From Sacculina carcini (lineage: Eukaryota; Arthropoda; Thecostraca; Sacculinidae): 64,000 nucleotides of DNA. The notes beneath the pieces were generated by a model that had not been told where the DNA came from, did not search any database, and saw only the letters and a list, made by a program, of their open reading frames with translations. Shown here piece by piece: positions 4,190-53,853 of the stretch; positions within the stretch are counted from its first letter, which is position 1; each line of letters opens with the position of its first letter. Location: positions 2,192,542-2,256,541 of the forward strand of contig OU696597.1 in assembly GCA_916048095.2 (NCBI GenBank). Direction: 5' to 3'. A program made the position numbers and the translations under genes.

Positions 4190-4315
4190 ACTCTTATTGG
4201 CACTCAAGTTGAGCATTGCTAATTTGGAAGCGTGCGTTGAAGGAAGGACGGTTTGAGCAATAAAAGTTTCGTTCGTTGTGATTGAAGTTAACAAGTTACC
4301 AGTGCCAAGTTAGTT
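4190..4315. repeat. Dispersed repeat, copy 1 (second copy near 14.98-15.11 kb)
   Basis: This segment (GCATTGCTAATTTGGA, a GCGTGCGTTGA block, then GTTCGTTGTGATTGAAGTT) recurs with changes at about 14985-15110. The shared tail includes GAGCAATAAAAG here versus GAGCAATACAAG there. Identity of the parent element is unknown. It could be an LTR or a duplicated untranslated region. Confidence 0.5.
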
Positions 4316-4328
4316 TTCATTATTAACC

Positions 4329-4493
4329 CGTTTTTTGAGACCGGTTTTAAGGATGATTATTTCTTTGATGTAGTTATTTGTGTTCAAATACCTCTCATCG
4401 GGAGAAGCATCTAACGGCCACTAAATATATCATCGACGTGACGACGATGCCGCAGACGAAGCTGATCCACATTGTGTTATTGTCCACTTCGTT
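4329..4493 (-). CDS. Transmembrane last exon, copy 1, with conserved downstream sequence
   Basis: Minus strand: a (TG)n tract ending TGTGTGTTTCCGCAG (splice-acceptor-like) is followed at 4493 by AAC GAA GTG GAC, encoding NEVDNNTMWISF, then one hydrophobic helix (CGIVVTSMIYLVAV) and the basic end RCFSR with TGA at 4395-4397. An N-glycosylation sequon (NNT) precedes the helix. In the same frame after the TGA come EVFEHK and TAA (4374-4376), which is the actual C-terminus of copy 3 at 52.29 kb, so the TGA looks like a later truncation. The next 70 or so bases match copy 3 almost perfectly although the coding parts differ. Predicted role: C-terminal membrane anchor of a small protein; the family is unrecognised. 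Confidence 0.5.
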
Positions 4494-4499
4494 CTGCGG

Positions 4500-4590
4500 A
4501 AACACACACATACACACATGATACATATATACACACACATACACACACACATATAAACACACATATATACATGCATATACACACACATTA
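4500..4590. repeat. (CA)n/(TA)n microsatellite forming the intron next to the transmembrane exon
   Basis: Alternating ACAC and ATAT tracts. The stretch nearest the exon (ACACACATACACACATGATACAT) is shared with copies 2 (39.03 kb) and 3 (52.1 kb, opposite strand), so part of this simple repeat has been inherited along with the exon. Confidence 0.8.
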
Positions 4591-5022
4591 GCCCGGGAAT
4601 AGATAGTGTTAAGGTGAATGCGAAGATAAATTCTTTATGGTTTCCTTACCTAACCTAACCCAACCTAACGATTTGTTTAAGCGTTCAAAAGTTTGAAAGA
4701 CTCTGAAATACATACAGCTGAGGAAAGATTGGCCAAGATGGTCACTCGTTTAACTTTCAGTCACTAGATACTCCACTATCAGATGCACTCACAACATGTA
4801 CCATTTTAGCCAATGTCGATATTCATCGCATCGTATTGCGATCGTCGAGTATTGGCCAAATTGGTTCGTTGGCCAAAACGGTAGTAACCCCGCCTGAGGT
4901 GGCAATCTGGCAGGAAAGTTTCTAGCAATCGCTCAACTGAATGACAAAAGTGTATAGAATAAAGGTGAAAAACAAACACCAATAGAAAAATATATGTTAA
5001 TTACAATAACAATATTGGTGAG

Positions 5023-5166
5023 CTACACATATATGCCAAAAAAGGCTTCTGGAACACGCACATGCACGACAATGTACTTAATTAAACACTCTATTTTGCT
5101 ACGCACTCTGTACGCCACTTTGCATTTGCAAAGGCTCGCACACACACCAATATATACACCAATGTT
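5023..5166 (-). CDS. Alternative terminal exon-like module (48 codons including stop)
   Basis: Minus strand: the acceptor-like TGACTGTGTCCAG precedes AAC ATT GGT GTA at 5166. The frame is open to TAG at 5023-5025 and encodes NIGVYIGVCASLCKCK, a Cys/Lys-rich middle and KYIVVHVRVPEAFFGIYV. A diverged copy lies at about 41142-41240 (minus) with CLIKYIVVYVRVPETFF, again between a start exon and a transmembrane exon. If the start exon at 5289 joins here instead of at 4493, the product would be a short form without the anchor. That is inference; it may simply be conserved intron sequence. Confidence 0.35.
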   Translation of the reverse strand, partial: NIGVYIGVCASLCKCKVAYRVRSKIECLIKYIVVHVRVPEAFFGIYV

Positions 5167-5169
5167 CTG

Positions 5170-5235
5170 GACACAGTCACACACACACATACACACACAC
5201 ACACACATACACACACACACACAAACACACACACA
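5170..5235. repeat. (CA)n microsatellite
   Basis: Near-perfect CA dinucleotide run with a few AT and AA interruptions, inside the intron between two small exon modules. Confidence 0.9.
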
Positions 5236-5288
5236 TGCACGTTGAGCTATATTATTTTAGATAGATATGTGTGTGTGTATTTTCTCAC

Positions 5289-5365
5289 AAAATAGTACAC
5301 GCAGGTTGTGGTGTTGTTCGGCCACACTCCTCCTGCTGCGTCGACGACAATAGCGAAATCCATTC
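5289..5365 (-). CDS. Start exon with ATG, locus 1 of the small-exon family
   Basis: Minus strand: the acceptor-like GCTATTAAACGCAG ends at 5366. ATG lies at 5363-5361 and the frame runs 25 codons, MDFAIVVDAAGG then VWPNNTTTCVYYF, to a donor GTGAGAAA at 5288. Both flanks match the paralogous start exon at 41320-41393: the upstream AACATTATTGCTATTAAACG and the downstream GTGAGAAAATACAC. The encoded peptides differ almost completely. The exon ends in phase 0, compatible with the AAC-starting exons at 5166 and 4493. NNTT is a potential N-glycosylation site. As a signal peptide it is weaker than its paralogue and may be degenerate. Confidence 0.45.
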
Positions 5366-5394
5366 CTGCGTTTAATAGCAATAATGTTTGTATA

Positions 5395-5632
5395 GTTGTA
5401 ATAGTGTCTGTATATGTGTGTGTGTATGTGTGTATATATGTATGTATATATAAACACGTATATATATACGTGTATGTGAGTGTATGTGTGTATATGTGTG
5501 TATGTGTGTATATGTGTGTGTATGTGTGTATATGTATGTGTATGTGTATTTATATGTGTGTATGTGTATTTATATGTGTGTATGCGTGCGTGCGTATGTA
5601 TGTGTCGATATATGTGTATGTGTATGAGCCAA
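5395..5632. repeat. TGTA/TATG-rich simple repeat
   Basis: Long degenerate run of TGTGTATG and TATATGTG units. Open frames across it on both strands are low-complexity artefacts. Confidence 0.85.
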
Positions 5633-5789
5633 AGTCTGTATGTGTAAGTTTACAATCAGCATCATCGCTTGTTAATTTGTCGTGACATATATCAACACCG
5701 AAACTTTACAAAAACAAAAACATACATACAAACATACATACATACACGCAAAAAGAAAGAAACATGCAGAAAAAATTATTCAGACCAGG

Positions 5790-5824
5790 TTGCGGTCAAT
5801 TATAATATTTTTAATTGACCGCAA
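5790..5824. repeat. Perfect 13-bp inverted repeat with 9-nt loop
   Basis: Left arm TTGCGGTCAATTA (5790-5802), right arm TAATTGACCGCAA (5812-5824), AT-rich 9-nt loop. It could be the core of a small palindromic element or an RNA hairpin. A second hairpin, AAGCACCT/AGGTGCTT with a CGA loop, lies at 6064-6082. No function assigned. Confidence 0.7.
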
Positions 5825-5829
5825 GAATT

Positions 5830-6590
5830 GACTACCAAAACAACTATCAACTATCTTCTTTCTTTCAAACAACTGGTAACTCGTAAAACATCTTGCAAAT
5901 ATATCTTCAAGTTATGCTTCAATATATTAATCGAACAGAAAACTAAAAAAACTATTTCATACCTTAACTCAAATGCGCAGATAGAATATACAAATGATAG
6001 AATATACAAATACGTTGACAATATGGCGTACAATACAATAAAATAGCATCGGAATTCTCGTGCAAGCACCTCGAAGGTGCTTCGTTCTGAAATTGTAAAA
6101 GTATGTCTTATGAAGAGTCGTGGCTTTTGCAATTATTAATTTTTACTTAGTGTGGTTTTTAAAATTTCATATGTCTGTGTGTGTATGTGGTAATATTTTT
6201 TCGCTAAAGCTAATATTCCTGATTATCAAGTCGAAAAGAAACAGAGCCTCATTTCAACCTATCTGTTACGTGATTGGCAGCTTTTTGAAGTTGATGTGTG
6301 AAGCGCGCCGCTTTGGGAGTCAACGTGAGATGTAGCTGAATAATGGGGTGCTCGCACTTTATGGTTGTCTGTTGTCTCCTTGATCAAGTATAGAATACGT
6401 AACGTGGTGGCAGTGGTGATTGTAATTTTTGTGGATTGATATTTCTAATGAAATTGAGTTTTTTCATCAGTTGAGTCAGTTTTGTACGCGTTGAATTCAT
6501 CTCATGTTCGTAGCGTGGTGAACGTATTTCAACCTTGATACAGTTGAATTTTGGGATTTTATTTTGTGCATTTCTGATAGAATTTTGATA
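5830..6590. other. AT-rich stretch without a supportable gene; possible retroelement leader at its end
   Basis: No recognisable coding sequence. Around 6404-6420 the sequence TGGTGGCAGTGGTGATTG resembles the region just after a 5' LTR in some Gypsy elements and lies 200 bases before a gag fragment. No LTR pair is visible, so this is weak. Confidence 0.3.
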
Positions 6591-8054: not shown

Positions 8055-9353
8055 CGAGTTTGTGTGTGTGTTTGTGTGTCAGTGATGTTTGTGTGTGTTT
8101 GTCAGTGATGTTTGTGTGTGTTTGTGTCAGTGATGTTTGTGTGTGTTTGTGTCAGTGATGTTTGTGTGTTTTTGTGTCAGTGATGTTTGTGTGTGTTTGT
8201 GTCAGTGGTGTGTGTGTGTGTGTGTCAGTGATGTGTGTTTGTGTGTCAGTGGTGTTTGTGTGTTTGTGTCAGTGGTGTGTGTGTTTGTGTGTGTCAGTGA
8301 TGTTTGTGTGTGTTTGTGTCAGTGATGTTTGTGTGTGTTTGTGTCAGTGGTGTGTGTGTGTGTGTGTCAGTGATGTGTGTTTGTGTGTCAGTGGTGTTTG
8401 TGTGTTTGTGTCAGTGGTGTGTGTGTTTGTGTGTGTCAGTGATGTTTGTGTGTGTTTGTGTCAGTGATGTTTGTGTGTGTTTGTGTCAGTGATGTTTGTG
8501 TGTTTTTGTGTCAGTGATGTTTGTGTTTTTGTGTGTCAGTGATGTTTGTGTGTGTTTGTGTCAGTGATGTTTGTGTGTGTTTGTGTGTGTGTCAGTGGTG
8601 TTTGTGTGTTTGTGTCAGTGATGTTTGTGTTTGTGTGTGTCAGTGGGGTTTGTGTGTTTGTGTCAGTGATGTTTGTGTGTGTTTGTGTCAGTGATGTTTG
8701 TGTGTGTTTGTGTGTCAGTGATGTTTGTGTTTGTGTGTGTCAGTGATGTTTGTGTGTGTGTGTGTGTCAGTGATGTTTGTGTGTGTTTGTGTGTGTGTCA
8801 GTGGTGTTTGTGTGTTTGTGTCAGTGATGTTTGTGTTTGTGTGTGTCAGTGGGGTTTGTGTGTTTGTGTCAGTGATGTTTGTGTGTGTTTGTGTCAGTGA
8901 TGTTTGTGTGTGTTTGTGTGTCAGTGATGTTTGTGTTTGTGTGTGTCATTGATGTTTGTGTGTGTGTGTGTCAGTGATGTTTGTGTGTGTGTGTGTGTGT
9001 GTCAGTGATGTTTGTGTGTTTGTGTGTCAGTGATGTTTGTGTGTGTTTGTGTCATTGATGTTTGTGTTTGTGTCAGTGATGTTTGTGTTTGTGTGTGTCA
9101 GTGATGTTTGTGTGTGTGTGTTTGTGTCATTGATGTGTGTGTGTTTGTGTCATTGATGTTTGTGTGTGTGTCATTGATGTTTGTGTGTGTGTGTGTGTCA
9201 GTGATGTTTGTGTGTGTTTGTGTCATTGATGTTTGTGTGTGTGTGTCAGTGATGTTTGTGTGTGTGTGTGTGTCAGTGATGTTTGTGTGTGTGTGTGTGT
9301 GTGTCAGTGATGTTTGTGTGTGTGTGTGTGTGTGTCAGTGATGTGTGTGTGTG
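8055..9353. repeat. TG-rich minisatellite, left block
   Basis: Imperfect tandem array of units of about 22-30 bp built as (TG)n TTTG TGTCAGTGATGTT, with GG and CATT variants. Several higher-order segments recur: about 8135-8330 is repeated with small changes at 8300-8495. The continuation after the inserted LINE is at 10916-11480. Open frames rich in Val-Cys are artefacts. Confidence 0.95.
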
Positions 9354-10915
9354 TGTTTTTTTTATGTTTTTTTTAAATTTTTTTTGACACAAACAAATAT
9401 ATTTACAAACGCGTACACATATTCACAATACTACTATAAAACAATGGAGGCGGCGTTGCCACGAATGACGGCCAGGCTTATTCGCTGTCGAAGCCAGGCC
9501 GTCTCTCGCGGCTCCCCTGAACGCTCACTTATTCTGCCGCCCAGGAGCTTCACGAAGTCGTCCAGGGATGCCCCCATCACGCCGGTGGTCTCGATGGCCA
9601 GCGGCACGAAATCGTACCGCTGGCACAGTTCTGAGTAGCGCCGCCGCTTTCGGACTTCCGCCGCCTGCGCTGCTGCCCCGGGAGTGACCGCGCCGTCCAG
9701 CAGATGTGTGTCACAGAACGTGTTGACGCAGGTCACATCCCAGAGCAGCGACTTGCCGTGCCGCACCGGGAACACGGTGATTCCGTCCGGTCGGCGGCCG
9801 TCGCCGCGGTCAAGGCCTTGAGGCTCCAGCACCGCGGCGATTCCTGCCGACGCCAAACTGCGGCGAATGATGTTGTTCAGCGCCGTGTGGCGTGGCAGGC
9901 GGCCGGCATTGCGACTGCAGGAGAGGCTATGGTGGCCCCACCTGTCAGTTGTGGCACCGCAGCGACACCTGTGCGGCTCTTGTACTGCGGCACCAAGTCG
10001 CAACGCCACGCCGACTCGGACGGCTTCGTCTGGCAGCAGCAAGCCGAGGCTGGCGACAGGCAGCGCTGACAGCCAAGCGCCACTGTGAGGAGCGGCCGCG
10101 GCCAGGAGACGGGCTCGGCACAGCTGGTTCGCGCCTCCGAGGAGATGTTCTTGGCGGACGGAGGAAGATCGGTCGTCTAGGTGGCGCTGGTGCAGTGGCT
10201 CGCTCGCGCTGAAGTCCGGGCACATGGTGTCCACGAACTCCTCGATGGCTGCCACCAGAGAGCAGGGTCTGTCACCGCTTGTGCGGTGGTTAATGAGACA
10301 GACCAAGTCTCTGGTAGCTTCCAGCGAGGCGATGTGGGCAGGTAGTGCCACGTCGCTCAGCCGTCTGGCTCCGATACCTCCGTGGCGGACCGGAAGAGAA
10401 GCCTGCAGCCACTGTGCGTCTGACATGGCGACATTGCAGCAATCGCTGATGGCCGATCTCAGCTGCTCGTCGATGTCACCCATTTGTTCGCGGGCCTGGT
10501 ACAACGGCGCTGCTCTCAGTAGGTATATTGCCCGCGGAACCGATGCGTACCTGCTGAGAAAAAACAGCGCCGGGTGCGAGCCGATGTTGACTGAGCGCTG
10601 GATCAGCAGGGACGTTTGGCCCTCGATTCTGTTGAGCGCCTCTGCAATGCCGCCAGTCTGCACTGGTGCGCCGAGCAGATGCAGGTCGGAGAGCTGCGTG
10701 ACTGTGGCCTAGGCGAGCAGTGATGTGGCGGCCGCGTTCGAGTCTTCGGTATCTGCTGGTCGTGTGTCAGTGGCTGGATCCAGACTGACAACTTCGCATT
10801 TGCCGGTGTTTAGCTCGAGGCCGATGCTGCCGAGGGCCGGGATCAGGCGGCTGACGTCTGCAAACACCACTTCCCTGGGGCCTGCCAGTGTGGCGTCGTC
10901 CAGGTACCACAGGTC
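9354..10915 (-). mobile_element. 5'-truncated LINE with nuclease-like C-terminus, inserted in the TG minisatellite (copy 1)
   Basis: The LINE lies inside the minisatellite: the same TG/TCAGTGATG array flanks it on both sides. Its 3' end is on the left, where the minus strand reads TTTGTGTC followed by three A-runs (the tail, 9354-9390) and then (AC)n. Its 5' truncation lies at about 10915, in the RT around the WYLDDA motif. The coding part is nearly open, with one TAG at about 10709. Copy 2 at 61.7-63.4 kb ends in the same GTCAAAAAAAA followed directly by (AC)n. Confidence 0.85.
9434..10910 (-). pseudogene. LINE reverse transcriptase C-terminal half with CCHC and PD-(D/E)XK-like region
   Basis: Coding starts at the cut RT motif WYLDDATLAG (about 10885-10912) and reads through NIGSHPALFFLSRYASVPRA and GIGARRLSDVALPAHIASL. 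A Cys/His cluster follows (CRCGATTDRWGHHSLSC), then a region with GDGRRPDGITVFP and LLWDVTCVNTF. A zinc cluster followed by RPD and D-V-T is the layout of the restriction-like endonuclease at the C-terminus of R2-type LINEs. Calling it PD-(D/E)XK-like is inference. One stop (TAG near 10709) splits the frame; the main open part is 409 codons from 10663. Copy 2 is closely similar, so the protein is recognisable over its whole length. Confidence 0.75.
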
Positions 10916-11450
10916 TGTGTGTGTGTGTCAGCGATGTTCGTGTGTGTCAGTGATGTTTGTGTCTGTGTCAGTGATGTTTGTGTTTGTGTCAGTGATGTTT
11001 GTGTGTGTTTGTGTCAGTGATGTGTGTGTGTGTGTGTGTGTGTGTCAGTGATGTTTGTGTGTGTTTGTGTCAGTGATGTGTGTGTGTGTGTGTGTGTCAG
11101 CGATGTTCGTGTGTGTCAGTGATGTTTGTGTTTGTGTCAGTGATGTTTGTGTGTGTGTGTGTGTGTGTGTCAGTGAGATTTGTGTCATTGGTGTTTGTGT
11201 GTGTCAGTGATGTTTGTGTGTGTTTGTGTCAGTGGTGTTTGTGTGTCAGTGATGTTTGTGTGTGTGTGTGTGTGTGTCAGTGATGTTTGTGTTTGTGTGT
11301 CAGTGGTGTTTGTGTGTGTGTGTCAGTGGTGTTTGTGTGTTTGTGTCAGTGATGTGTGTGTCAGTGGTGTTTGTGTGTGTGTCAGTGATGTTTGTGTGTG
11401 TTTGTGTCAGTGGTGTGTGTGTGTGTCAGTTGTGTTTGTGTGTGTTTATT

Positions 11451-11480
<30 letters not shown>
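10916..11480. repeat. TG-rich minisatellite, right block
   Basis: The same TCAGTGATGTTTGTGTG units as at 8055-9353, grading into a pure (TG)n run at about 11455-11490. Confidence 0.95.
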
Positions 11481-11489
<9 letters not shown>

Positions 11490-11815
11490 TAGTGTTTCAG
11501 TGTGTTTGTGTGTTTTGGTGTTTATGTGTGTGTTTGCTTATGTGTATGTATATATGTTTGTGCTTGCATGTGTGTTTGTGTGTGTGTGCGTGATTGTGCC
11601 TGTGTGTCTGTCTGTGTATGTGTCTAAATGTCTAATTTAGCGTAGTGTGTGTGTGTATTAATGTCTCATGTATGTATGTAATGTATTAATGTGTATTAAT
11701 GTGTGTGTGTGTATTAATATCTTAATGTAGCGTAGTGTTTTTGTGTTTGTTTGTGTGTGTTTTTATGTATCAATGTCTCAATATATCATGGTGTTTGTGT
11801 GTGTGTGTTTGTTGA
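11481..11815. repeat. Degenerate TG-rich and TATTAATG-rich simple sequence
   Basis: Mixed TGTG, TATG and GTATTAATGT repeats with no gene. Confidence 0.8.
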
Positions 11816-18199: not shown

Positions 18200-21100
18200 T
18201 CTATATATATAAAAGAGATCCTCTGTGTGTCTGTGTGTGTGTCTGTCTGTGTGTCTGTTCGACCCTCCTTGGTCCATTTTCTATCAGCTATTATTCGGCC
18301 ACCACTCAGCCTACCCGCTAACAATTTATACCATCACGTTGGAAATTTTCTTGTCTACACTTTAGATTAAATTTTAAATTTCAAAAATGAAATCAAAAAA
18401 AGTTATAGCGGTGAAAAAACAAAATGAACCCTGAAAAATGCGAAAATTGTGGTCAATGCTCTGCCATCTACTCCTCATAAACCAGAAATGGTACAGCCAA
18501 ACAGATTATACCACTGTGTAGAGAATTTTCTGTTCTACAAGATAGGTTATAATTCATATCCAAAAATAGAACATAAAAGATGTAAACATGACGAAATTTC
18601 AATCTATATTCAAAATTATATTTATACTCCACGCGTCCGATTTTCTATACTTTTTTCTCTATGTATCGAAAACTAATTATCACACAACTAAATAAATAAT
18701 ACCATCATGCTGGGAATTTTGTTTGCTACAACACGGTATAATTTTTAATTTTCCAAAGTGTATTAAAAAAAAGTTATGGCGGTGTGAAGTCAAAATGACA
18801 AAGTCAAAAATGCAAAATTAGCACTGGAAACCGTGAATGTTTTGGTAAATATTCCCCTATCTATTCCTCATAAACCATCAATGGTACAGCTATAAAAATT
18901 ATACTATTGTGTAGATAATTTTGTGTTCTACAAGAAAAGTTATAATTTATACCCACAAATGATACAAAAAATGTGTAAAATTAGCAAAATTGTCAAATAC
19001 ATCCAAAATTACACTTGATCACCGGGCGCCTAAATTAATTCATTTTTCTACCTATTTCTCAGGAACTATTTGTCACACATTAAAATAAATTATATCATCG
19101 TGCTGGGAATTGTATTTTTTAAAATGCGGTATAATTCTTAATTTTCCAAAGTGTATCTGAAGGAAGTGACGGCGGTGTAAAGTCAGAAGGACATATTGCC
19201 AATTTGACAGCTATTATGCGCACTTGCGATTACACAGGAATATACTACTGTGTAGAAAATTTTGTGTTCTACAAGAAAAGGTGTAATTTATACCCACAAA
19301 TGATACAAAAAACGTGTAAAATTGGCAAAATTCTCAAATACATCCAAAATTACACTTGAACACCGGGTGACTACAATTTATTCATTTTTATACCCATTTC
19401 TCAGGAACTATTTGTCATACATTAAAATTAATTATACCATCGTGCTAGAAATTTTGTTTCCTACAGTACGGTATAATTTTTAATTTTCCAAAGTGTATCT
19501 AAAGGAAGTTACGGCGGTGTAAAGTCAAAATGTCATGTTGCCAATTTGACAGCTATTATGCGTACTTGCGATTACACATGAATATACACTGATTAAATTT
19601 CACTGAAGTCCAATCACAATTTACGCACTTGCGATTACACAGGAATATACTACTGTGTAGAGAATTTTGTGTTCTACAAGATAAGCTATAATTTATACCC
19701 ACAAATGATACAAAAAACGTGTAAAATTGGCAAAATTCTCAAATACATCCAAAATTACACTTGAACACCGGGCGACTAAAATTAATTCATTTTTCTACTA
19801 TTTCTCAGTAACTATTTGTTACACATAAAAATAAATTATACCATCGTTCTAGAAATCTTGTCTTCTACAATACGGTATAATTTGTAATTTTCCAAAGGGT
19901 ATCTGAAGGAAGTTACGGCGGTGTAAAGTCAAAAGGACATATTGCCAATTTGACAGCTATTATGCGCACTTGCGATTACACAGGAATATACACCGATTAA
20001 ATTTCACTGAAGCCCAATCACAATTAAGAATGCATCATATTATCTCCAAGCATGGATGGTGTGGTTTTATTGCGTACAGTTTAATTAATGCTACACTCTA
20101 CTGAATATAAAGGCTTTATTGTCCTCAATAACGTTCCGCACGACGGGCGGGTAAAATGCTATTGGGAACAAAGTAAACTACTGAATTTAACTGTGTAATT
20201 TAATTGGTTTAATTTCAAGTTGCATAAGCATAAGTTGCATAAGGATATGGGTTGCAATATCATGTAATGCCAACTTATGCTGTTTTAGCGGAAGCATTAA
20301 CCTGGAATTATAGAGATGACAGAAGGCTGCATTGTTTTGATAGTGTTGTGGAAAAACATGTTTTCTAAATTGAAACATAAATTTCACATTTAGACTTTTA
20401 GATTAGCTATAACTTTCCTGTGGGTTTGTTTTTCTTTTTCAATTTGCACTAATTTTTTTATGAATTGAATATTAATTATATTTTATGAACTGTTCCGCAC
20501 GACGGGCGAATTAAATGTATCTATAAAGAGTGGGTTTAAATGATAGCGAGGTATATGATATTTTGCTAGCAGTAAATATTCTAGCGATAAAAGTAGAATA
20601 GCTCTTAAGCAAATGATTTTGGAGAATGATGTGAACCTTTAAATATATTTTGCGATCTGATGATATATGTATTAGGAATAATACGTAGCAGAATATAGAT
20701 TGCATAATATAATATCGGCTGTAATATCAAGGGCTGCATTATCGATGTAATCCAAAAAATAACAACTGTATGAATATGATGCATTAGTGGAAGCATTAAC
20801 CGGGAATTATGAGATAATATGATAATGGTGTAAAATTATATCGCATTATGCAACAAATGTGAATTTAGCTACCTTACAGTTTGGTCCCGATACTATATTG
20901 GCGGGTTGAGAGAAAAGTATTGGTGGGCCGCGTGTTTGGGACCCCTGGGGTAGATAATCTCAGTCTTCTGATTACAAATTATGATCGCATCAGTATATTT
21001 TGTGATCACAAACTAATAAGTTAAATCACCTCAGACTAGGCTGAGAGCGTTCAAGATTGAATGGTTGGGTTGGGTTGGGTAGGTTTGACTCAGGTTATAT

Positions 21101-22226
21101 TGGGTTTTAATGATAGCGGAAAATATATAAATTTTAACAATAAATATTATAGCGGTAAAAGTGAAATAGTACTTAAGCAAATGATATTGGGGAATGATGT
21201 TAAGTAATAAATATAGTTTGGAAACAGTCTGATGAAAAGATTTCATCATCTTTCATTGTTTGTTTCGTGTTTGTGTTCTGAATTATACCACACGACGGGC
21301 AGATTTATATATCAGGCGGGTTGAGGGATAATATTTGTCAAAATAAGAACAAAAATATTCACATTCAGACTTTTCTATTGGTTAAGATATTTATAGGTTA
21401 CATTTTTTGCTTTTCAATTTGTATTCATTATATTTTATGGATTTGATATGAATTTTATTGTATGAATTGTTCCGCACGACGGGTGGGTTTAAAAAAGTGT
21501 TTTAGATCATTTTTTCAAATGGTTCATTTAAAAAAGGTAATTTTTTTAAAAAATAAAAATGTTCCGCGGGCAGCAAATATAGACAATAGAACGTTCAATC
21601 TCCCCTGTAGAATTAATCCATACACAAAACCAATGGATTTGACTTCAAATATGAATTTTATTGTATGAATTGTTCCGCACGACGGGCGGGCTTAAAAAAG
21701 TGTTTCCATTTTTTAGTTCATTTTTTCAAATGGTTCATATAAAAAAGGTATTTTTAACGGGCGGGTTTTAATGCTATATATATACATAAAGAAGAAATTA
21801 TTTGTCTGTCTGTGTATGTATGCTTGAATATGAGGTGACATAATTGCGCTGGTTCATGGTTCGCTGGTTCAATGATCAGGGGCTTGAAACGCAAACGAAG
21901 CTATGGCTCATTTTTATGAAATAAAAATGTCCCGCGGGCAGCAATAAAACGTTCAATTTCACCGTATAGAATGAATTCCTATACAAAACTAATGGATTTG
22001 ACTTCAAGAACCAGAACGGATGGTGTTCGAGTTCTGAATTATTCCTCACGTCGGGCGGGTTTAAATATGAGGCGGGTTGAGTGAAAATATTTTGTCAAAA
22101 TAAAATTAAAAATAATGAAATTTATACTTTTTAATTGATTAAGGTCTTCATGAGTTCGCCTTATTTATTTTTAATTTGCAATATTTTTATGAATTGCTCC
22201 GCACAACGGGCGGGTTTTAATGCTAG
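18200..22226 (+). mobile_element. Non-autonomous Helitron-like cluster, plus orientation
   Basis: The 5' end follows an A and reads TCTATATATATAAAAGAG. The 3' end reads ACAACGGGCGGGTTTTAATG, then CTAG at 22223-22226, followed by T. This fits Helitron rules: 5' TC, 3' CTRR, insertion between A and T, no target duplication. The paralogous unoccupied site at 25.92 kb fixes both ends. Inside are about five tandem copies of a 340-400-bp unit (18.33-20.03 kb) and several internal CCGCACGACGGGCGGG 3'-end-like motifs (20.13, 20.49, 21.28, 21.47, 21.67, 21.76, 22.04 and 22.20 kb), so elements are nested or arrayed. No Rep/helicase gene is present; a partner must supply it. Confidence 0.75.
18330..20030. 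repeat. Internal 340-400-bp tandem units of the Helitron-like element
   Basis: Each unit carries a TACCATCNTGCTGGGAATTTTG-type block (about 18335, 18702, 19093, 19437, 19837), a GTTACGGCGGTGTAAAGTCAAAA block, and a TGTGTAGAAAATTTTGTGTTCTACAAG block. Units are diverged from one another yet clearly alignable. The same series, reverse-complemented, makes up 54.8-56.4 and 57.3-58.9 kb. Confidence 0.85.
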
Positions 22227-22366
22227 TCATACTATAAGGAAGCTTGTTCTTTTAAATTAAATTTGGCAGACGGAATTTTTGTGCTCTGAAATAGCTGTTT
22301 CTGTTAAGACCACCATGGGAAATATGATTATTATTTTGTATTATAATATGGGCTTAATTGTCTGTA
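22227..22366. repeat. Duplicated segment, right half of locus 1 (paralogue at 25.92-26.05 kb)
   Basis: Begins TCATACTATAAGGAAGCTTG and continues through TTTGGCAGACGGAATTTT and GGCTTAATTGTC. The paralogue reads on without the 4.03-kb insert. Locus 1 then holds about 420 extra bases (22367-22786) before the homology resumes at CACGACAGCTACGG. Confidence 0.85.
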
Positions 22367-35913: not shown

Positions 35914-36650
35914 CCATTGCTATATCTCTACTGTCCCTATACGAAATTCGTGAATTTTGTGAAAATAAGATACCCAGATAAGATAACACACACACACACA
36001 CACACACATACAAGTAGGACCCCAACACTATCCCAACAATATCCCTAACACTACCATTATAAATTTCACCTAATTCGACCAATAACACCAAATTCGTCCA
36101 AATATTTTGTGTCGGAAATATTTTGCGCTGCAAATGATGCATGGTACAGTTTGTGCTCTAATACAGTATATAGTTATATACATGTTTTGAATTTGAAGAA
36201 AAAAGGTACATTTTATTTTTCCAACTACGAAGAGCTCGATGAATTCATTTATACGGAACTTGTGTGGTTCAGTACCTCCAACATGTTCTCTTGTTGGTGC
36301 GGTCGGGTTACACAAACCATCAAGCCGTTCTGCATAAAACATGTAATAACCCGCAGTGAGAGGAAACGAGGTATTTATTTAATGAATAACAATGAAAACA
36401 ACCAATGAGTAATAAAACAATCGTTCACGACACTTGCAAACACAACATAACCACCAACACACACACAATCAACATGAGCATACACAACTAGTCAAACACA
36501 CTAACGTTGACCAATTACCGCTCGAATTTGAAAGCACACACACGCACACACATGTACGTTGAGCTTTATCATCATAGATGTGTTGTGAGAAGGGTTGTGT
36601 TACAAGGGTCCTTGGTAATTAGACCGCCCGATGATGCAAGGTTTCATCTG

Positions 36651-37007
36651 TCAGCGTGTGCGGCTATATTTGCAGCAGTGTGGAGTGAGGACTGGACGTG
36701 GAACTGTGAGCTTTGCGGGGAAGTTGTGAGAGTGATTGTGTTTGCGTGTGTGAGGTGTGAGAGTAATGGTGAGTGGTGTTAATAGTGTCAATTGCGAGGG
36801 TTTATGCGTGCAAGTGCTTCTATCGTTTTCCATTTCCTTATTTGTATTTACTTCAGAATGCAAATAAGGACGACGTATCTCATTTTTCTTGTGTTGGCTG
36901 AAATCACAATAATAATAATAAGAAGACCGAGGTGAAAAACAAGATGGAGAAAGGAGGACTGATTTCAGTCGACTATACAGCGGTGACATAGCGAGGAGAA
37001 ACAGCAC
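36651..37007 (-). CDS. Open frame conserved in both segmental-duplication copies, function unknown
   Basis: A minus frame of about 113 codons from the ATG at 36989 (MSPLYSRLKSVLLSPSCF, a run of Tyr, then His/Thr-rich sequence). The copy at 43888-44244 is open over the same length with only a few changes (for example SQHKKNEIRR versus NQHKKNEKRR). The duplication is too recent for conservation to prove coding, and the low-complexity C-terminal half argues against it. Confidence 0.2.
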   Translation of the reverse strand: MLFLLAMSPLYSRLKSVLLSPSCFSPRSSYYYYCDFSQHKKNEIRRPYLHSEVNTNKEMENDRSTCTHKPSQLTLLTPLTITLTPHTRKHNHSHNFPAKLTVPRPVLTPHCCKYSRTR

Positions 37008-37062
37008 TCCACAGCGGTGAAAAAATATTATGCTCTTGTTGGTGCGGTTGGGTTACACATAC

Positions 37063-37098
37063 CATCGTATTGATATTGGTATTGATTTCCCCTCTGTT
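37063..37098 (-). CDS. Candidate 36-base micro-exon, copy A
   Basis: Minus strand: a (TG)n tract ending GTGTGTGCTTTCAG precedes AAC AGA GGG GAA ATC AAT ACC AAT ATC AAT ACG ATG, then a strong donor GTATGTGTAACC. It encodes NRGEINTNINTM in phase 0 at both ends. The acceptor tract and AAC start match the 3.56-kb and transmembrane exon modules, and the end NTM echoes NNTM in the transmembrane exons. Copy B at 44300-44335 encodes NRGDINTNINTM. Candidate only. Confidence 0.4.
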
Positions 37099-37190
37099 CT
37101 GAAAGCACACACACACGCACATACACACACACACACATACACAAGTATGACCCCAATACTATCCCAACAATATCCCTAACACTATCATTA

Positions 37191-37442
37191 TTATTTAAAC
37201 GCCTGCCGCCTGGCAGGACCACATGCGGCTGTTATCGCTACCATCCTGCGCCAGGAACACCGCTTCCAAATCTTCATCGGCGAGTCCCCACGGCCAGGCT
37301 GGATCCTGCCGACCGAGACAGTCGGCACACGTACACCTCTCAGCATTTCTATCGCGCCCGGTAGCGCGACCACACCCACCTCCATCTGACTGTCAGCCTC
37401 CTCGATGTTGTTACATTTTGCAGCCCATGGTGCCAAAGGCAT
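37191..37442 (-). pseudogene. C-terminal part of the unidentified protein, copy A
   Basis: Open frame MPLAPWAAKCNNIEEADS, QMEVGVVALPGAIEMLRGV, SVGRIQPGRGDSPMKIWKR and ending RRQAFK. It begins a few codons after the stop of the frame that ends GIAERGKG at 37452, so a frameshift probably separates two parts of one protein. The same arrangement is present in copy B, so the break predates the segmental duplication. GC-rich, coding-like; no family recognised. Confidence 0.4.
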
Positions 37443-38913: not shown

Positions 38914-39021
38914 TCATCGGGAGAAGCACCTAACGGCCAGTGAAATTATCATCGACGTGACGACAATGCCGCCGACGAAGCCGACGAAGCTGATCCACAT
39001 TGTGTTATTGTCCACTTCGTT
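38914..39021 (-). CDS. Transmembrane last exon, copy 2
   Basis: Minus strand: the same intron end as copy 1 (TGTGTGTTTCCGCAG), then AAC GAA GTG GAC encoding NEVDNNTMWISFVGF, a hydrophobic stretch (GGIVVTSMIISLAV) and RCFSR with TGA at 38914-38916. It is 36 codons, three more than copy 1, owing to a small in-frame duplication in the start of the helix (GTCGGCTTCGTCGGC). The post-stop frame again reads EVFEHK and TAA. Downstream homology to copies 1 and 3 stops at about 38885 (ATGTAGTTATTTGTG). It lies 2.3 kb downstream of the matching signal-peptide exon at 41.39 kb, same strand, compatible phase. Confidence 0.5.
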   Translation of the reverse strand, partial: NEVDNNTMWISFVGFVGGIVVTSMIISLAVRCFSR

Positions 39022-39029
39022 CTGCGGAA

Positions 39030-39110
39030 ACACACACATACACACATGATACATACACACATACACATACACACACATACATGCATAATACACACACATA
39101 CATGTACATA
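39030..39110. repeat. (CA)n-rich intron tract next to transmembrane exon copy 2
   Basis: ACACACATACACACATGATACATACAC-type sequence; the part closest to the exon is homologous to 4500-4530. Confidence 0.8.
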
Positions 39111-39119
39111 CATGCCGTA

Positions 39120-39350
39120 GTTCTCAACGTCCTCGAGCAATCTGTGCCAATAAGCAAGCCTATTGTCTCATCGTACACCATGAGTTGTTTAGCTATCGGC
39201 TGCAGGTGTGACCATCGATTGGCTCCTGCTGTTACTGTTATTCATGCTACCCTGCCGTCCGCCCACCGCCCCCTTTCTTTCTCGCCGCCCCCCAGATCTT
39301 TCTACCGCGCCCAGGGGGGCGTTACCGCCCACTTTGGGAACCACTGAGCT
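39120..39350. mobile_element. Piece of LINE ORF1 followed by a hAT end fragment
   Basis: 39178-39216 (ATGAGTTGTTTAGCTATCGG, then TGCAGGTGTGACCAT) matches the LINE ORF1 start at about 42063-42025 on the other strand. After it, GGGGGGCGTTACCGCCCACTT and TTTGGGAACCACTG (to 39346) form a hAT-type right end (reverse complement CAGTGGTTCCCAAA). The left end is uncertain. Confidence 0.5.
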
Positions 39351-39429
39351 AGACGAACAGTTAGACCAGATGGCAGAACAGATGGAACAGGTGACGAAAG
39401 AGATGACAAATCTATCTGGCATCACATGT

Positions 39430-40880
39430 TATTCATATTACGACCATTCACAAATGATTTATCATGAAGGATATAAGCTAGAAAGACAGATATACTCAGT
39501 TCGATCAGATATCACTATATTTACATAATTGAACTATTTATTATGTTATTTTTTCATTTATTCATCCATTTCACCGTCATATGACATTATAATTTGTGAG
39601 GTGAATGTTGACGCCCGTCGGCTTCCTCTTGCGATGGCACGGTTAACCCCGTGTTTCTGTCTCGGTGTGGATGTGCGAACTTATCTGTTCTGATCGGCCA
39701 TTATTCTATTGTTTTTAGGCGTCGCTCAGGATCCTAGAGGCGAGATGAATATCGGTATCAACTATCCGTGACGTACGTGAATATTCAGAAAACTAAAGTA
39801 TTTCACTGTTACTGAGTATCAATATATATCTTACCTGTAATCGTTTGGTTATATCAACTACTTATAGTGAACTGTAGAAAAAACTATTTCAACAAATAAC
39901 AAGGAATTATATAGCACTCACACAATGCAAACTCAAAGATAATTTACGCAGAACGCTTATACAAGGGCGCAATAAACCAACCTGATTTTTTATAGATTTG
40001 GCCTATGCAAACACAAAAACGAAAACGATTCTGATCAATCGTATATCACGTCTCGAATGAAAATCTGTCAAAATGTTTGTGTAATTCGCGTTGGTCATAG
40101 TCACCATGGCAACGTCGAAAGCCCGCGAACATTTTCCATTTGAACTTCTACATGGGACCCACCGTTTTGCGCTAAACCGCTAAGTGAACGTAAGCTAAAT
40201 AGGCTCCGCCCACCGGATTAGCCCAGGCGCGCCGAGAGTGATGAGGGTCCGCTCAGTGCGCCAAGAAATTTGTGAGCCGTCATTGCAGACAATGAGTGCA
40301 ACGCTTCAATTTCTCTACGCGTTGCTTAGAAGTTAGTGAATTTCAAGGCGTAAAGTAGCCTAGATTGTTCTTGTCGTTTTGAGATGGTCGTTCGAGCCTT
40401 TTTCTAAACATGAATTATAAGGCTCTTTGGCGTGTTTTAGACAGTCTGGAAAATAGAAATATATGTTTATTTATTTAATTGAAGTGTTAATAAAACCTTA
40501 GACATTCATTGCTTCACTTCGAATTAGAAATTTGCTGGCTTAGCTCGATTTTATGTACTGGGATTCCGATGTTCGACAAAGAACAACTTTTCAAAGATGA
40601 TTAAGGCTCTTCTAGTGTGCAATTTTCAATATTTTTGAATTCGTATATTCAATATATTTATATTTAATTCGATTTTTGTCTCGCCGACAAAACAATAAGA
40701 ATTATTATACCTAAGTAACATTTATTATTGCAATATTACTTTTTGAAAGTTATATTTAGGGGTGCCGTATGGTCCCAGAGGCCGGTGCACCCCATAAACA
40801 CAAATATCGAATCGAAAGTTATATTTATCAAAGCTAATCAGCGCACTGTTCTAGTGTTATTTTTGACAAATGCCTTTTCG
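39430..40880. other. AT-rich stretch without gene
   Basis: No coding sequence seen. 40757-40793 contains GGGGTGC, a loop, and GCACCCC, a short stem-loop, within GTATGGTCCCAGAGGCC. Its function is unknown. Confidence 0.4.
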
Positions 40881-40883
40881 TTG

Positions 40884-40990
40884 CTAGGTTAGGCTAGGCT
40901 GGTTAGGTTAGGTTAGGCTGGTTAGGTTAGGTTAGGCTGGTTAGTTTAGGTTAGGTTAGGTTGGGTTGGTTAGGTTAGGTTAGTTACACT
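40884..40990. repeat. Interstitial TTAGG-type telomere-like array
   Basis: Imperfect tandem of GGTTA (TTAGG) with regular GGCT interruptions: GGTTAGGTTAGGCT recurs with a period of about 20-22 bases, then GGTTAGGTTAGGTTGGG. TTAGG is the common arthropod telomere unit. Smaller CCTAACC tracts occur near 4650 and 34605. Confidence 0.75.
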
Positions 40991-41141
40991 TCGCAGTGGA
41001 CGCAGCGCGCCTGTTAGCTCCGCCTCCACTTTGTTTAGCGCAAATAGGGTAGTGCCCTTCTACATACGTACACGCACATATGTACATGTTTCTTAACACA
41101 TAACGTTTCTAACCTAACCTAATTACAATTACAATATTGGT

Positions 41142-41240
41142 AAACTACACATATATGCCAAAAAAAGGTTTCTGGAACACGCACATACACGACAATGTAC
41201 TTAATTAAACACACTATTTTGTTACGCACTCTGCACGCCA
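41142..41240 (-). CDS. Alternative terminal exon-like module, locus 2
   Basis: Minus strand: TGTGTGTGGCGTGCAG, then AGTGCGTAACAAAATAG, reading VRNKIVCLIKYIVVYVRV, PETFFWHICV and beyond. It is homologous to the second half of the 5023-5166 module; the first part (AAC ATT GGT...) is missing here. Both lie between a start exon and a transmembrane exon. Could be conserved intron sequence rather than an exon. Confidence 0.3.
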
Positions 41241-41281
41241 CACACAAACACACACATGTACGTTGAGCTTGAATATTATAG

Positions 41282-41312
41282 ATAGATGTGTGTGTGTGTG
41301 TGTGTGTGTATT
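41282..41312. repeat. (TG)n microsatellite in the intron after the start exon
   Basis: A run of 11-12 TG units between the conserved GTGAGAAAATAC donor side and the CTCAACGTACATGT motif (minus-strand reading). Confidence 0.9.
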
Positions 41313-41319
41313 TTCTCAC

Positions 41320-41393
41320 ACTATTAGTGGTGGAGTTCTGCTGCCCTGCTACCACAGTCAGCAGCAGCAGCTGCTGTGTCCTCAGAGCCATAC
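41320..41393 (-). CDS. Signal-peptide start exon, locus 2 of the small-exon family
   Basis: Minus strand: the acceptor-like ATTATTGCTATTAAACGCAG ends at 41394. ATG lies at 41391-41389. The 24 codons read MALRTQQLLLLTVVAG, then QQNSTTNS, followed by donor GTGAGAAA at 41319. This is a classic short signal peptide: basic n-region, LLLLTVVA core, likely cleavage after AG, followed by an N-glycosylation sequon (NST). It ends in phase 0, so it can join the transmembrane exon at 39021 (AAC start). Flanks are strongly homologous to the start exon at 5289-5365, while the coding bases are almost unrelated. Confidence 0.5.
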
Positions 41394-42835: not shown

Positions 42836-44299
42836 TGCCTCTCTTGGAGACAGCTGTCATATTGGATGAACCACGTTGTGAAATCACTGCCTGAAACACT
42901 AAGCACTTGTGAAACACTAAGCACTTTGAAAACCACTGAATGCTGTAACAACGGAACACAAGTTGGCGTGACCAATGTCAAACAAAGAATGGGTCAGGGT
43001 GCATGTGTATGTGTGCGTCCTGGCTGCTAGCGGGCTGGAGATTTGCGTGTGTTTGTATGTCTGTATGTGAGAAGTTAGCTGGTACCTGGCATCTGGAGAA
43101 GATCCCTCGAGCGGTTGTACTGTATGCACCCTAATACTGTATGCACCCATTGCTATATCTCTACTGTCCCTATACGAAATTCGTGAATTTTGTGAAAATA
43201 AGATACCCAGATAAGATAACACACACACACGCACACACACACACATACAAGTAGGACCCCAACACTATCCCAACAATATCCCTAACACTACCATTTTATA
43301 TTTCACCTAATTCGACCAATAACACCAAATTCGTCCAAATATTTTGTGTCGGAAATATTTTGCGCTGCAAATGATGCATGGTACAGTTTGTGCTCTAATA
43401 CAGTATATAGTTATATACATGTTTTGAATTTGAAGAAAAAAGGTACATTTTATTTTTCCAACTACGAAGAGCTCGATGAATTCATTTATACGGAACTTGT
43501 GTGTTTCAGTACCTCCAACATGTTCTCTTGTTGGTGCGGTTGGGTTACACAAACCATCAAGCCGTTCTGCATAAAACATGTAATAACCCGCAGTGAGAGG
43601 AAACGAGGTATTTATTTAATGAATAACAATGAAAACAACCAATGAGTAATAAAACAATCGTTCACGACACTTGCAAACACAACATAACCACCAACACACA
43701 CACAATCAACATGAGCATACACAACTAGTCAAACACACTAACGTTGACCAATTACCGCTCGAATTTGAAAGCACACACACGCACACACATGTACGTTGAG
43801 CTTTATTATCATAGATGTGTTGTGAGAAGGGTTGTGTTACAAGGGTCCTTGGTAATTAGACCGCCCGATGATGCAAGGTTTCATCTGTCAGCGTGTGCGG
43901 CTATATTTGCAGCAGTGTGGAGTGAGGACTGGACGTGGAACTGTGAGCTTTGCGGGGAAGTTGTGAGAGTGATTGTGTTTGCGTGTGTGAGGTGTGAGAG
44001 TAATGGTGAGTGGTGTTAATAGTGTCAATTGCGAGGGTTTATGCGTGCAAGTGCTTCTATCGTTTTCCATCTCCTTATTTGTATTTACTTCAGAATGCAA
44101 ATAAGGACGACGTTTCTCATTTTTCTTGTGTTGGTTGAAATCACAATAATAATAATAAGAAGACCGAGGTGAAAAACAAGATGGAGAAAGGAGGACTGAT
44201 TTCAGTCGACTATACAGCGGTGACATAGCGAGGAGAAACAGCACTCCACAGCGGTGAAAAAATATTATGCTCTTGTTGGTGCGGTTGGGTTACACATAC

Positions 44300-44335
44300 C
44301 ATCGTATTGATATTGGTATTGATGTCCCCTCTGTT
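44300..44335 (-). CDS. Candidate 36-base micro-exon, copy B
   Basis: Same structure as 37063-37098 with one amino-acid change (NRGDINTNINTM): acceptor GTGTGTGCTTTCAG, donor GTATGTG. Confidence 0.4.
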
Positions 44336-44431
44336 CTGAAAGCACACACACACACACGCACATACACACACACACACATACACAAGTATGACCCCAATAC
44401 TATCCCAACAATATCCCTAACACTATCATTA

Positions 44432-45164
44432 TTATTTAAACGCCTGCCGCCTGGCAGGACCACATGCGGTTGTTATCGCTACCATCCTGCGCCAGGAACA
44501 CCGCTTCCAAATCTTCATCGGCGAGTCCCCACGGCCAGGCTGGATCCTGCCGACCGAGACAGTCGGCACACGTACACCTCTCAGCATTTCTATCGCGCCC
44601 GGTAGCGCGACCACACCCACCTCCATCTGACTGTCAGCCTCCTCGATGTTGTTAAACTTTGCAGCCCATGGTGCCAAAGGCATGAATCCTGGTTATCCTT
44701 TCCCTCTCTCGGCTATGCCCCATGGTACCCCGGAAGGTTGCACGAAGCCTTTGTCTGTTTGGGCAGTATACAGGGACGCCTTCAAGGCCCGACCCCGGTA
44801 ATCTGCTTTGTAGTCTCGCACGGTGTTATGTGCAAAGATCCGCAGCTCGGGCGCGGCTGCTAGGATGAGACTAGAGTCCTTGCCAGGTCTTATATTCATA
44901 TACATCGAGCTAAGCTCGACAGGAGAATCGTCTAATTTCGAAATGAATCGAGTTGTTGTCTCGCTCTCCACAGATCTGTCATGGTGGAAGAGATGATTGA
45001 TATTGACTCCGAGCCAGACAGGTAGCTCGTTGACGTGACAGAAAGGAGTCTCCCGGGGCGTAATCACGCCACCCGGGTCGGGTCCCCCGTCCACGTCGAT
45101 CCGCACATACGGGGTCCCCGCCAATCCGTAAAAGTCCGAGGTCACATGCTCGTTTTGCTTGCAG
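44432..45164 (-). pseudogene. Unidentified protein remnant, copy B (C-terminal portion only)
   Basis: Frame 44693-45164 reads CKQNEHVTSDFYGLAGTPY to GVPWGIAERGKG, then frame 44432-44683 (MPLAPWAAKFNNIEEADS to RRQAFK). It is homologous to the copy A protein from its CKQNEH segment on. The upstream three-quarters of copy A are absent; the frame instead opens into a TA-rich microsatellite. A few residues differ (NINHLFH versus NINNLFH, TTRFIS versus KTRFIS). Confidence 0.5.
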
Positions 45165-51900: not shown

Positions 51901-52005
51901 GACCGGGGAAGCAGTTTCTTATCACACGAAGTCCATCAATATCTCAACAGTCGTGGAGTCGCTACCAGCCGAGCCACCCCGTATCACCCGGAAACATCTG
52001 GTTAA
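48988..52005 (+). CDS. Gypsy-type gag-pol in one long ORF, 3' truncated
   Basis: An open frame of 1005 codons starting ATG at 48988. Order (approximate residues): capsid-like gag 1-200; zinc knuckles CWFCGSGIHPRNVC and CSNCHKVGHWAKVC 217-255; protease with IVDTASSESFI near 295; RT about 430-610 with FDLRSAYHQIPL and YLDN; RNase H from VECDASDVAVSATL near 718; integrase zinc motif HEGLCHPG...CTACRIC 848-885; integrase core with SIDFKGPL near 912 and VHSDRGSSF near 969. The ORF stops at TPYHPETSG, just before the expected catalytic Glu, so the third residue of the D,D,E triad and the C-terminus are gone. The RT box reads YLDN, not YLDD. Otherwise the youngest-looking coding element here. Confidence 0.9.
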   Translation: MERVLCPEKLSVDPHSKDSEKAYTHWRKTFDNFILECGENAPDKFRCLTRFVSADVYDYIRDASDFNDAISKLDNVYVKTKNAVFNRYVLATRKQQPNESIDEFLLALHRLSRDCKFKTVSPEEYRLELVRDSFITGIYSNAIRQRLLENESLSLEQACIQAKALDTAQQHAACYLPTADVHTAAAVYTPGQSSDETEMSEEKEKSTVAATTFPKRACWFCGSGIHPRNVCPAKSSTCSNCHKVGHWAKVCKSKRTPKLKTGSVACTHLCAISAAAPDCLKQSCLPACVKGHNITAIVDTASSESFIHGSVARRLGLQIHSHHQGIKLALSSVEAPVTGMCIVEMTLNDVHYSDVILLVMENLCGDVLLGIDFLRQHTSLIMEYGGSKPILKVSQDRNASCCFTAAKIPLTSIFANMKKDVKPVASKSRTYCSEDKAFIAQEVRHLLSEGIVEHSNSPWRAQIVIVRDDENKRKRMCIDYSRTVNLYTNADAYPVPNISEMVNTFSQYRKFSTFDLRSAYHQIPLIDSDKPLTAFEANGKLYQFTRIPFGVSNGVAVFQRVMDRLCEEEKLKDTFPYLDNITIAGRNQAEHDENLNRFMTVIKERNLTLNKEKSVVSVDSIDVLGYTVGHGSIKPDKNRMSPLLNMSIPTNATSLKRMLGLFAYYAKWVPDFASKAHPLYNVRCFPLEQEAVSALEHLKHCLADASLRSIEDNTPFVVECDASDVAVSATLNQRGSPVAFMSRTLNKSEQHYPAVEKEATAIIEAIRKWYHLLAGGHFTIVTDQRSVAFMFDSRKTTKIKNNKIQGWRLELSSLSYTIRYRPGSQNVAPDTLSRAVCASVGRNGLIDVHEGLCHPGVTRMLHFVRSKNLPFSTDEVKRVCTACRICAEVKPRFHKPADATLIKSTRPMERLSIDFKGPLQSSSKNIYLFTAVDEYSRFPFAIPCPDMTAGTVVKCLDSIFSLCGMSAYVHSDRGSSFLSHEVHQYLNSRGVATSRATPYHPETSG

Positions 52006-52036: not shown

Positions 52037-52377
52037 CTAGTATCTAGGTGGCGTTGACCGAGGCAACGCCACCTAGAAGTAGTCTAGGTGGCATTGGTAT
52101 AGGTATCATGTATGTATGTGTGTGTTTCCGCAGGCCGAGAATGACGCTAGCGGGTTCATTCGCTTTGGAGGGGAAATTCACCATCAAAGTTGTGATCGTG
52201 GTCGCGGTCACGGTCGCCGTCCCGGCCGGCTTACTAATATTGGTGTACAAATATTGCGCAAAGCTTTGCAAAAGAGAGGTATTTGAACACAAATAACTAC
52301 ATGAAAGAAATAATCATCCTTAAAACCGGTCTCAAAAAATGGATCTAGTATCTAGGTGGCGTTGACCGAGGCGACGC
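52037..52377 (+). other. Transmembrane-exon cassette flanked by 33-bp direct repeats
   Basis: A 33-bp sequence beginning CTAGTATCTAGGTGGCGTTG lies at 52037-52069 and again at 52345-52377 with one mismatch. Between them is the third copy of the transmembrane last exon. The left repeat also forms a hairpin with TCTAGGTGGCGTTG (52043-52056) and CAACGCCACCTAGA (52064-52077). Related CTAGGTGGCGTTG sequence occurs at about 33985. The origin could be a small mobile unit or a local duplication. Confidence 0.6.
52134..52345 (+). CDS. Transmembrane last exon, copy 3, with conserved downstream sequence
   Basis: Plus strand: the acceptor TATGTGTGTGTTTCCGCAG (as in copies 1 and 2) ends at 52133. Two readings exist. 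Phase 0 begins AENDASGFIRFGGE and soon loses the helix. Phase 1 gives KFTIKVVIVVAVTVAVPAG, LLILVYKYCAKLCKREVFEHK and TAA at 52294, a clear single membrane helix with a basic tail. A frameshift near 52180 may join them. The last codons and about 50 bases after the stop match copy 1 with two or so differences, while the exon itself is nearly unrelated. Confidence 0.5.
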
Positions 52378-53672: not shown

Positions 53673-53853
53673 GGGGACGAGGTGTTCACGTAGGCGATGA
53701 GGATGTGGCGAGTCAAACAATTCAATTAATTGAAGCAATTCAATTAATCATTCAATCATACAATTCTATCAATCAATTCAGTGTACAAATCTTCTACAGA
53801 ATCTTCTATCTATTTTTGACCTTTTATGGTGAACCTCCCTCTATATATATATA
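53673..53853. other. Short AT-rich spacer
   Basis: TCAATTAATTGAAGCAATTCAATTAAT near 53720 is locally palindromic. No gene. Confidence 0.4.

Follow-up and report, generated by a model that had tools for sequence, protein, structure and literature searches.

Near-identical introns and diversified, re-paired exons in a probable local family of mini membrane-protein genes

We found that a locus near the beginning of the analysed DNA (locus 1) is probably a member of a local, recently amplified gene family, in which each gene would comprise a probable non-coding 5′ exon, a start exon and a transmembrane exon, and would encode a single-pass membrane protein of 57-64 residues. The window, that is, the whole stretch of 64,000 nucleotides that was analysed, is C31:2192542-2256541 of a 264-Mb eukaryotic assembly of 43 contigs; retroelement frames and (CA)n arrays are numerous in it. 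Among the 120 listed of 7,992 hits to an Hsp70 reading frame of this genome, the best named ones of ordinary length came from Pollicipes pollicipes (90 and 89%), with some unnamed metagenome hits likewise at 89-90%; other named arthropods stood at 82-87%, and because molluscs and fish reached 84-87% as well, this points only weakly to a barnacle or a relative of barnacles. A COX1 search of the assembly gave no match. Members of the family share their flanks, carry strongly differing phase-0 exons and combine the same exons in varied pairings. Such reversed conservation, with introns kept and exons varied, is the opposite of that in ordinary genes and is a pattern already known from fast-changing secreted proteins. 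The features of the window are listed in Table 1.

Table 1. Family features in the window, with positions counted from its first base
Feature	Positions	Strand	Details
Probable non-coding 5′ exon, locus 1	5963-6083	-	5′ end not defined; AAG end before GTATGA
Inferred intron 1, locus 1	5366-5962	-	Ends in TATTAAACGCAG; its 3′ end recurs genome-wide (25 matches, of which 23 exact)
Start exon, locus 1	5289-5365	-	MDFAIVVDAAGGVWPNNTTTCVYYF; ATG at 5363; a pair of overlapping N-x-T sequons; phase 0
Inferred intron 2, locus 1	4494-5288	-	GTGAGAAAATAC to TTTCCGCAG; encloses the claimed stop exon
Claimed stop exon	5023-5166	-	More likely intronic; partly repeat-derived
Transmembrane exon, locus 1 (type A)	4395-4493	-	NEVDNNTMWISFVCGIVVTSMIYLVAVRCFSR and stop; phase 0; TGA end; TTTCCGCAG before
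3′ flank, locus 1	4300-4391, lower end approximate	-	From GGTATTTGAACAC on; piece of a 1,108-place repeat
Start exon, locus 2 (type B)	41320-41393	-	MALRTQQLLLLTVVAGQQNSTTNS; phase 0
Inferred intron 2, locus 2	39022-41319	-	2298 nt; matches the intron ahead of an exon E at 2280/2297 aligned bases
Transmembrane exon, locus 2 (type A″)	38914-39021	-	NEVDNNTMWISFVGFVGGIVVTSMIISLAVRCFSR and stop
Third copy in window	52102-52296	+	Transmembrane-exon acceptor flank 52102-52133, then type B exon

The start exon and the transmembrane exon of locus 1 had been proposed in the initial annotation of this DNA, and both were present with the borders given there and in compatible phase 0. The start exon is preceded by AAACGCAG and followed by GTGAGAAAATAC, and a phase-0 join of MDFAIVVDAAGGVWPNNTTTCVYYF and NEVDNNTMWISFVCGIVVTSMIYLVAVRCFSR gives a predicted product of 57 residues. 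Further upstream, the probable 5′ exon lies within a stretch that shares 77% identity with the sequence ahead of the start exon on contig C15, with the donor-like GTATGAAATAG at the same place. The stretch 5806-6083 had 14 matches, on C31, C15 and C25, and the two copies of the 5′ exon that were followed (one on C25, the other at C31:2285 kb) gave way to unrelated DNA over the 1.8 kb retrieved. An Rfam search of the window returned no match.

A genome-wide search by intron ends, which the initial annotation had suggested as a way of collecting paralogues, yielded 25 places with the upstream flank of the start exon and 49 with the acceptor flank of the transmembrane exon. The start-exon flank was searched at up to 3 mismatches, and its matches comprised 24 places on C31 and 1 on C15, 23 of them exact, one with 1 mismatch and one with 2; the backward control gave 7 places at up to 3 mismatches. 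With a gap of 60-90 bases the start-exon pattern occurred at 22 places, all on C31, and with a gap of 91-121 bases at one, on C15. Six start exons were recognised, each read in phase 0 between its ATG and the donor. Type A has 3 copies, B 13, C 5 and G 2, while D and F occur once each, F on C15. Across their 15 pairs, 0.46-0.71 of columns were identical, against shuffled means of 0.46-0.49; the pairs B-G (0.71), B-C (0.63) and C-G (0.61) exceeded all 300 shuffles and hence are not wholly unrelated. When the ATG was kept and the rest shuffled, the probability of a frame that was open and as hydrophobic was 0.026 for A, 0.0068 for B, 0.0030 for C, 0.0020 for D and 0.0012 for F, a test that covered these five of the six exons, start G having been found later. 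By eye, five of the six look like signal peptides, start A being a weak one.

For the transmembrane exon, the 32-base acceptor flank was found at 48 places on C31 and 1 on C15, and its control at 0. The kinds of exon behind this flank were A, B, E, F, H and I, together with one disrupted kind; type C occurs without it. Among the 47 of the 49 copies that were read, 40 carry a hydrophobic, predicted membrane segment in frame 0 ahead of the first stop; the AG is also kept in 31 of the 40, which encode 9 distinct peptides. The 31 include 3 type B copies with a replaced 3′ half and are not independent, because many are near-identical recent copies. In the remaining 16 of the 47, either the AG or the membrane segment in frame 0 is missing: the AG is lost in 9, the frame is shifted in 3, the exon is disrupted in 3 and a stop precedes the membrane segment in 1. 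Four of the 9 that lost the AG are of type H, in which another AG stands nine bases on and phase is kept. The C15 copy has a stop ahead of its membrane segment. Compared in pairs, exons A″, E, B and I were 0.47-0.54 identical (shuffled means 0.46-0.49), and the shuffle test for open and as hydrophobic frames gave 0.0002 for transmembrane A, 0.0016 for E and 0.0002 for C; the row for exon F was left out of the evidence as unfair, because F itself carries a stop. Length differences among type A exons were 3, 3 and 9 nt. Five type I exons stand in a row within 22 kb at C31:3423211-3444860, with an acceptor AG in two and AT in three. Both coding-exon borders are confined to a 2.4-Mb stretch of C31 and one place on C15.

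The window itself was expected to hold a second locus that shares the non-coding borders of locus 1 and differs in the start exon, and this locus was found as claimed. The start exons of loci 1 and 2 were identical in 43/93 columns (shuffled mean 0.48), while their flanks were identical in 47/65 columns for the 60 nt upstream and in 45/70 for the 60 nt downstream (shuffled ~0.50). When four start exons were compared, the 6 pairs showed exon identities of 0.46-0.63 and flank identities of 0.61-0.90, ranges that touch. Around locus 2, two 300-nt samples (35986-37405 and 43223-44646) recur at a spacing of ~7.24 kb with 99 and 100% identity. The type B exon of the third copy (52134-52296) is frameshifted relative to intact paralogues elsewhere on C31. 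A gypsy-type polyprotein with protease, reverse transcriptase, RNase H and integrase domains occupies an open frame of 1005 aa (48988-52005, plus strand) that stops ~100 bases before the flank of this exon; its matches were a mix of arthropods, none close.

The reversed conservation showed more cleanly in two genes that have start B and a different second exon, in which the start exons were identical at 74/74 bases, the introns at 2280/2297 and the transmembrane exons at 59/123, so that an intron of 99.3% identity lies beside exons of 48%. With another aligner and the shared tail removed, these transmembrane exons were identical in 65/121 columns, a fraction of 0.54, compared with a mean of 0.49, a 95th percentile of 0.53 and a maximum of 0.58 among shuffles. 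Just before exons A″ and E part, 292/292 aligned bases were identical, and the change came exactly at the splice site. Two genes with exon E agreed in 123/123 bases of that exon, in 200/200 of the 200 nt behind it and in 1458/1475 of the last 1500 nt of the intron, and their start exons in 45/71. Starts G and C were identical at 40/74 within the exon, at 1164/1173 in the next 1200 nt and at 205/221 in the 230 nt upstream. Among near copies, locus 1 differed from L002 and L003 by 8 and 9 substitutions in 97 columns in the block that holds most of the transmembrane exon, with one 3-nt indel in that block and another in the preceding one; the other blocks from 6765 to 3864 carried 0-5 substitutions per ~100 columns between locus 1 and L002, and L003 had two further divergent patches (13/76 and 11/95). 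The idea that conserved intron borders accompany divergent small coding exons was thus borne out by the intron and exon identities and by the six start-exon types, and the likeness to a secreted or surface protein family, which had been predicted from this combination, was supported by it.

Pairing of the exons was examined by measuring distances against 25 of the 33 minus-strand transmembrane exons on C31. Start B was followed by A″ at 2.35-2.41 kb nine times and by E at 2.395 kb twice, and we therefore take the exons to have been re-paired. Start C had E at 3.85 kb in two cases, behind a disrupted exon. Partners were missing at several places: 2 of the 13 copies of start B had none within 12 kb, start D had no exon with a known acceptor within ~11.7 kb, and one start G (L088) had only a disrupted transmembrane exon, with unrelated DNA at the expected site of E. 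For three plus-strand copies of start C, the places with the acceptor flank included no plus-strand transmembrane exon within 60 kb downstream, and another three transmembrane exons (types I, H and B) had no start exon with the known flank in the ~5 kb before them.

A third element of the initial annotation, a stop exon between the two coding exons of locus 1 whose alternative use would give soluble or anchored forms, fared less well. Its frame was open at six places, namely locus 1, the near copies L002 and L003, and the C31 places L005, L006 and L007. At the start-B places, 13 in number, as well as in the C15 and D copies and in three repeat copies of L008, the frame was changed. The segment 4895-5139, which overlaps the claimed exon, is part of a repeat present on several contigs. 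Because the frame is changed at most other copies and part of it is dispersed repeat, 5166-5023 is more likely intron than stop exon, and a switch between soluble and anchored forms is likewise judged unlikely, since the stop exon itself is weak.

The initial annotation had also named, as a result that would count against it, genome-wide copies that reveal the module as part of a transposon. This was the case for the 3′ flank, the 25-base core of which, GGTATTTGAACACAAATAACTACAT, occurred at 539 and 569 places (up to 3 mismatches), 1,108 in all; in 20 fetched copies the majority base made up 0.71-1.00 of rows per 20-base block along ~500 bases. The conserved 3′ flank was accordingly rejected as a signature of the family: all 20 fetched copies (from C1-C4, C6 and C7; 20 of the 1,108) share another upstream sequence. 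Codons for the common tail VFEHK and its stop lie in this repeat, which types E′ and F do not have. It was partly the case for the claimed stop exon, but not for the coding-exon borders: the dispersed borders expected of a transposon module were not seen, the start and acceptor flanks occurring on C31 and C15 only and the 3′ flank alone being dispersed.

The neighbourhood contains further repeated sequence. Satellite-like blocks at 18224-20025, 21756-22227 and 53842-59050, with periods of 342, 404 and 449 bp, are inverted copies ~35 kb apart, and the 53.8-58.8 kb side is itself doubled. A long TGTGTGTCAGTGA minisatellite at 8061-9354 and 10916-11513 is split by a minus-strand frame (9434-10663), which had no Pfam match but recurs in inverted orientation (75%) at 62548-63249, inside a frame resembling reverse transcriptase. 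Between 2.46 and 3.99 Mb, C31 also carries six copies of an Hsp70 fragment of ~31-34 residues, each with TAA.

We then considered how else introns could be so alike beside exons so different. Positive selection on point mutations alone, by which the exons of recent duplicates would have diverged fast while the introns had no time to change, might seem suggested by two close pairs, of type B exons and of start A, each of which showed 2 replacements and 0 synonymous changes. The comparison of exon with intron rates proposed in the initial annotation bears on this point. Between locus 1 and L002, exon pS was 0.17 (3.5 of 20.8 sites) and pN 0.06, so that synonymous divergence was raised over the flanks; selection on replacements does not cause that. 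Between locus 1 and locus 2 there was no excess (pS 0.09 and pN 0.07, against 71/75 identical bases over the final 80 nt of the intron), and because this pS is close to the nearby intron, the argument from synonymous sites for the age of the exons rests on locus 1 and L002. L002 and locus 2 gave pS 0.26 and pN 0.05, and the I pair pS 0.11 and pN 0.13. The pN/pS ratios were 0.37, 0.71 and 0.19 for the A pairs and 1.14 for the I pair, none clearly above 1, and the data thus give no clear proof of positive selection. These numbers are small; taken with exons that differ throughout next to introns that hardly differ, they favour conversion or exchange restricted to the flanks. With exons of 48% identity beside an intron of 99.3%, and synonymous divergence raised as well, selection alone is disfavoured and appears highly improbable. 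Recombination is needed for flanks to be homogenised while old exon differences persist, because rapid point mutation alone cannot give this pattern.

An alternative in which a mobile element carries the exons, or in which a dedicated recombination system exchanges them as cassettes at their borders, would fit the change exactly at the splice site, the (TG)n-rich acceptor border and the dispersed repeat at the 3′ border; the confinement of the 5′ and acceptor borders to C31 and C15 speaks against it, ordinary conversion explains the data, and we consider it improbable. A viral origin was set aside because viral contigs, scanned once with a single transmembrane exon, yielded no relative, a weak test for short proteins. 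The cluster could also be made up of relics in decay: a formerly active family would have been multiplied passively along with repeats and segmental duplications, leaving open frames as fossils from which no product is now made. Consistent with this, 16 of the 47 transmembrane copies are altered or damaged, 5′ exons are orphaned, one copy in the window is frameshifted, the C15 copy contains a stop and the region is rich in repeats. Decay would, however, affect introns and exons alike, which is the opposite of what was seen; type A length changes are multiples of three; and 31 of the 47 copies, many of them near-identical and not independent, keep the AG, frame 0 and a membrane segment in 9 distinct peptides. 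We therefore regard decay as unlikely, though a good deal less so than selection alone or the mobile-element and cassette reading. Collectively, these data are best read as a mixture of intact and damaged genes for small membrane proteins, in which diversified exons would have been re-paired between homogenised introns.

In the reading we favour, unequal exchange and gene conversion among the copies would homogenise introns and flanks and re-pair exons. Diverged exons would convert less, selection for novelty at a surface would keep them different, and the exon differences would be older than the present introns. The predicted product is a short, usually glycosylatable outer stub with one transmembrane helix and a short tail, mostly with a signal peptide; splicing, signal-peptide cleavage and a surface location of the products are inferred from the sequence. 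The most likely role would be recognition or evasion at a contact surface, whether between host and parasite, between gametes or between self and non-self. More speculatively, and with a rather low likelihood in our judgement, the C31 cluster may be a combinatorial recognition locus, in which a reservoir of start and transmembrane exons is re-paired through homogenised introns to give a changing repertoire of tiny surface glycoproteins. Its logic would resemble that of antigen or allorecognition loci, but it would be built from proteins of ~60 residues. If expressed, the family would offer a clean natural example in which introns vary less than the coding exons on either side of them and the two coding exons of a gene are exchanged independently. 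It would allow one to measure how flanks are homogenised by conversion as selection holds exons distinct, and a lineage with poorly known surface proteins, perhaps related to barnacles, would gain a family of mini membrane proteins.

Searches for relatives gave no homologous protein for one spliced protein of 59 aa, no Pfam match above the cut-off for four constructs and no solved structure for one spliced member, all weak tests for proteins of about 60 residues. Literature searches with phrases on conserved introns returned no paper, or unrelated ones. By analogy only, the predicted products recall mini glycoproteins like CD52, a very short mature peptide with an N-glycan; CD52 is anchored by lipid and is not a diversified gene cluster. 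The micro-exon genes (MEG) of schistosomes are described as having many short exons, most of 15 bp and up to 81 bp, mostly divisible by three, and as encoding variable small proteins that have a signal peptide and are secreted (PMC10526429). Short exons, length divisible by three and variable small proteins are common to both systems as described, but only two coding exons per gene were recognised here, of 74 nt or more, one of them with a predicted transmembrane segment. The closest known pattern, likened by description rather than by sequence comparison, appears to be that of the Hessian fly genes for small secreted salivary gland proteins, SSSGP-1, which are clustered and small, with a conserved promoter, UTRs and intron and a super-diversified mature coding part (Chen et al. 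2010, PMC2955719); as in that account, non-coding regions here are more alike than coding ones between paralogues. Its authors propose positive selection together with concerted homogenisation (PMC2955719). According to the text of that paper, in which the word transmembrane is absent, the signal-peptide region of SSSGP is conserved and the products are secreted (PMC2955719). Compared with that description, the signal-peptide exon of the present family has itself diverged (six starts, 0.46-0.71 of columns), the second exon is a predicted transmembrane segment (40 of the 47 copies read) and exons have been re-paired between genes.
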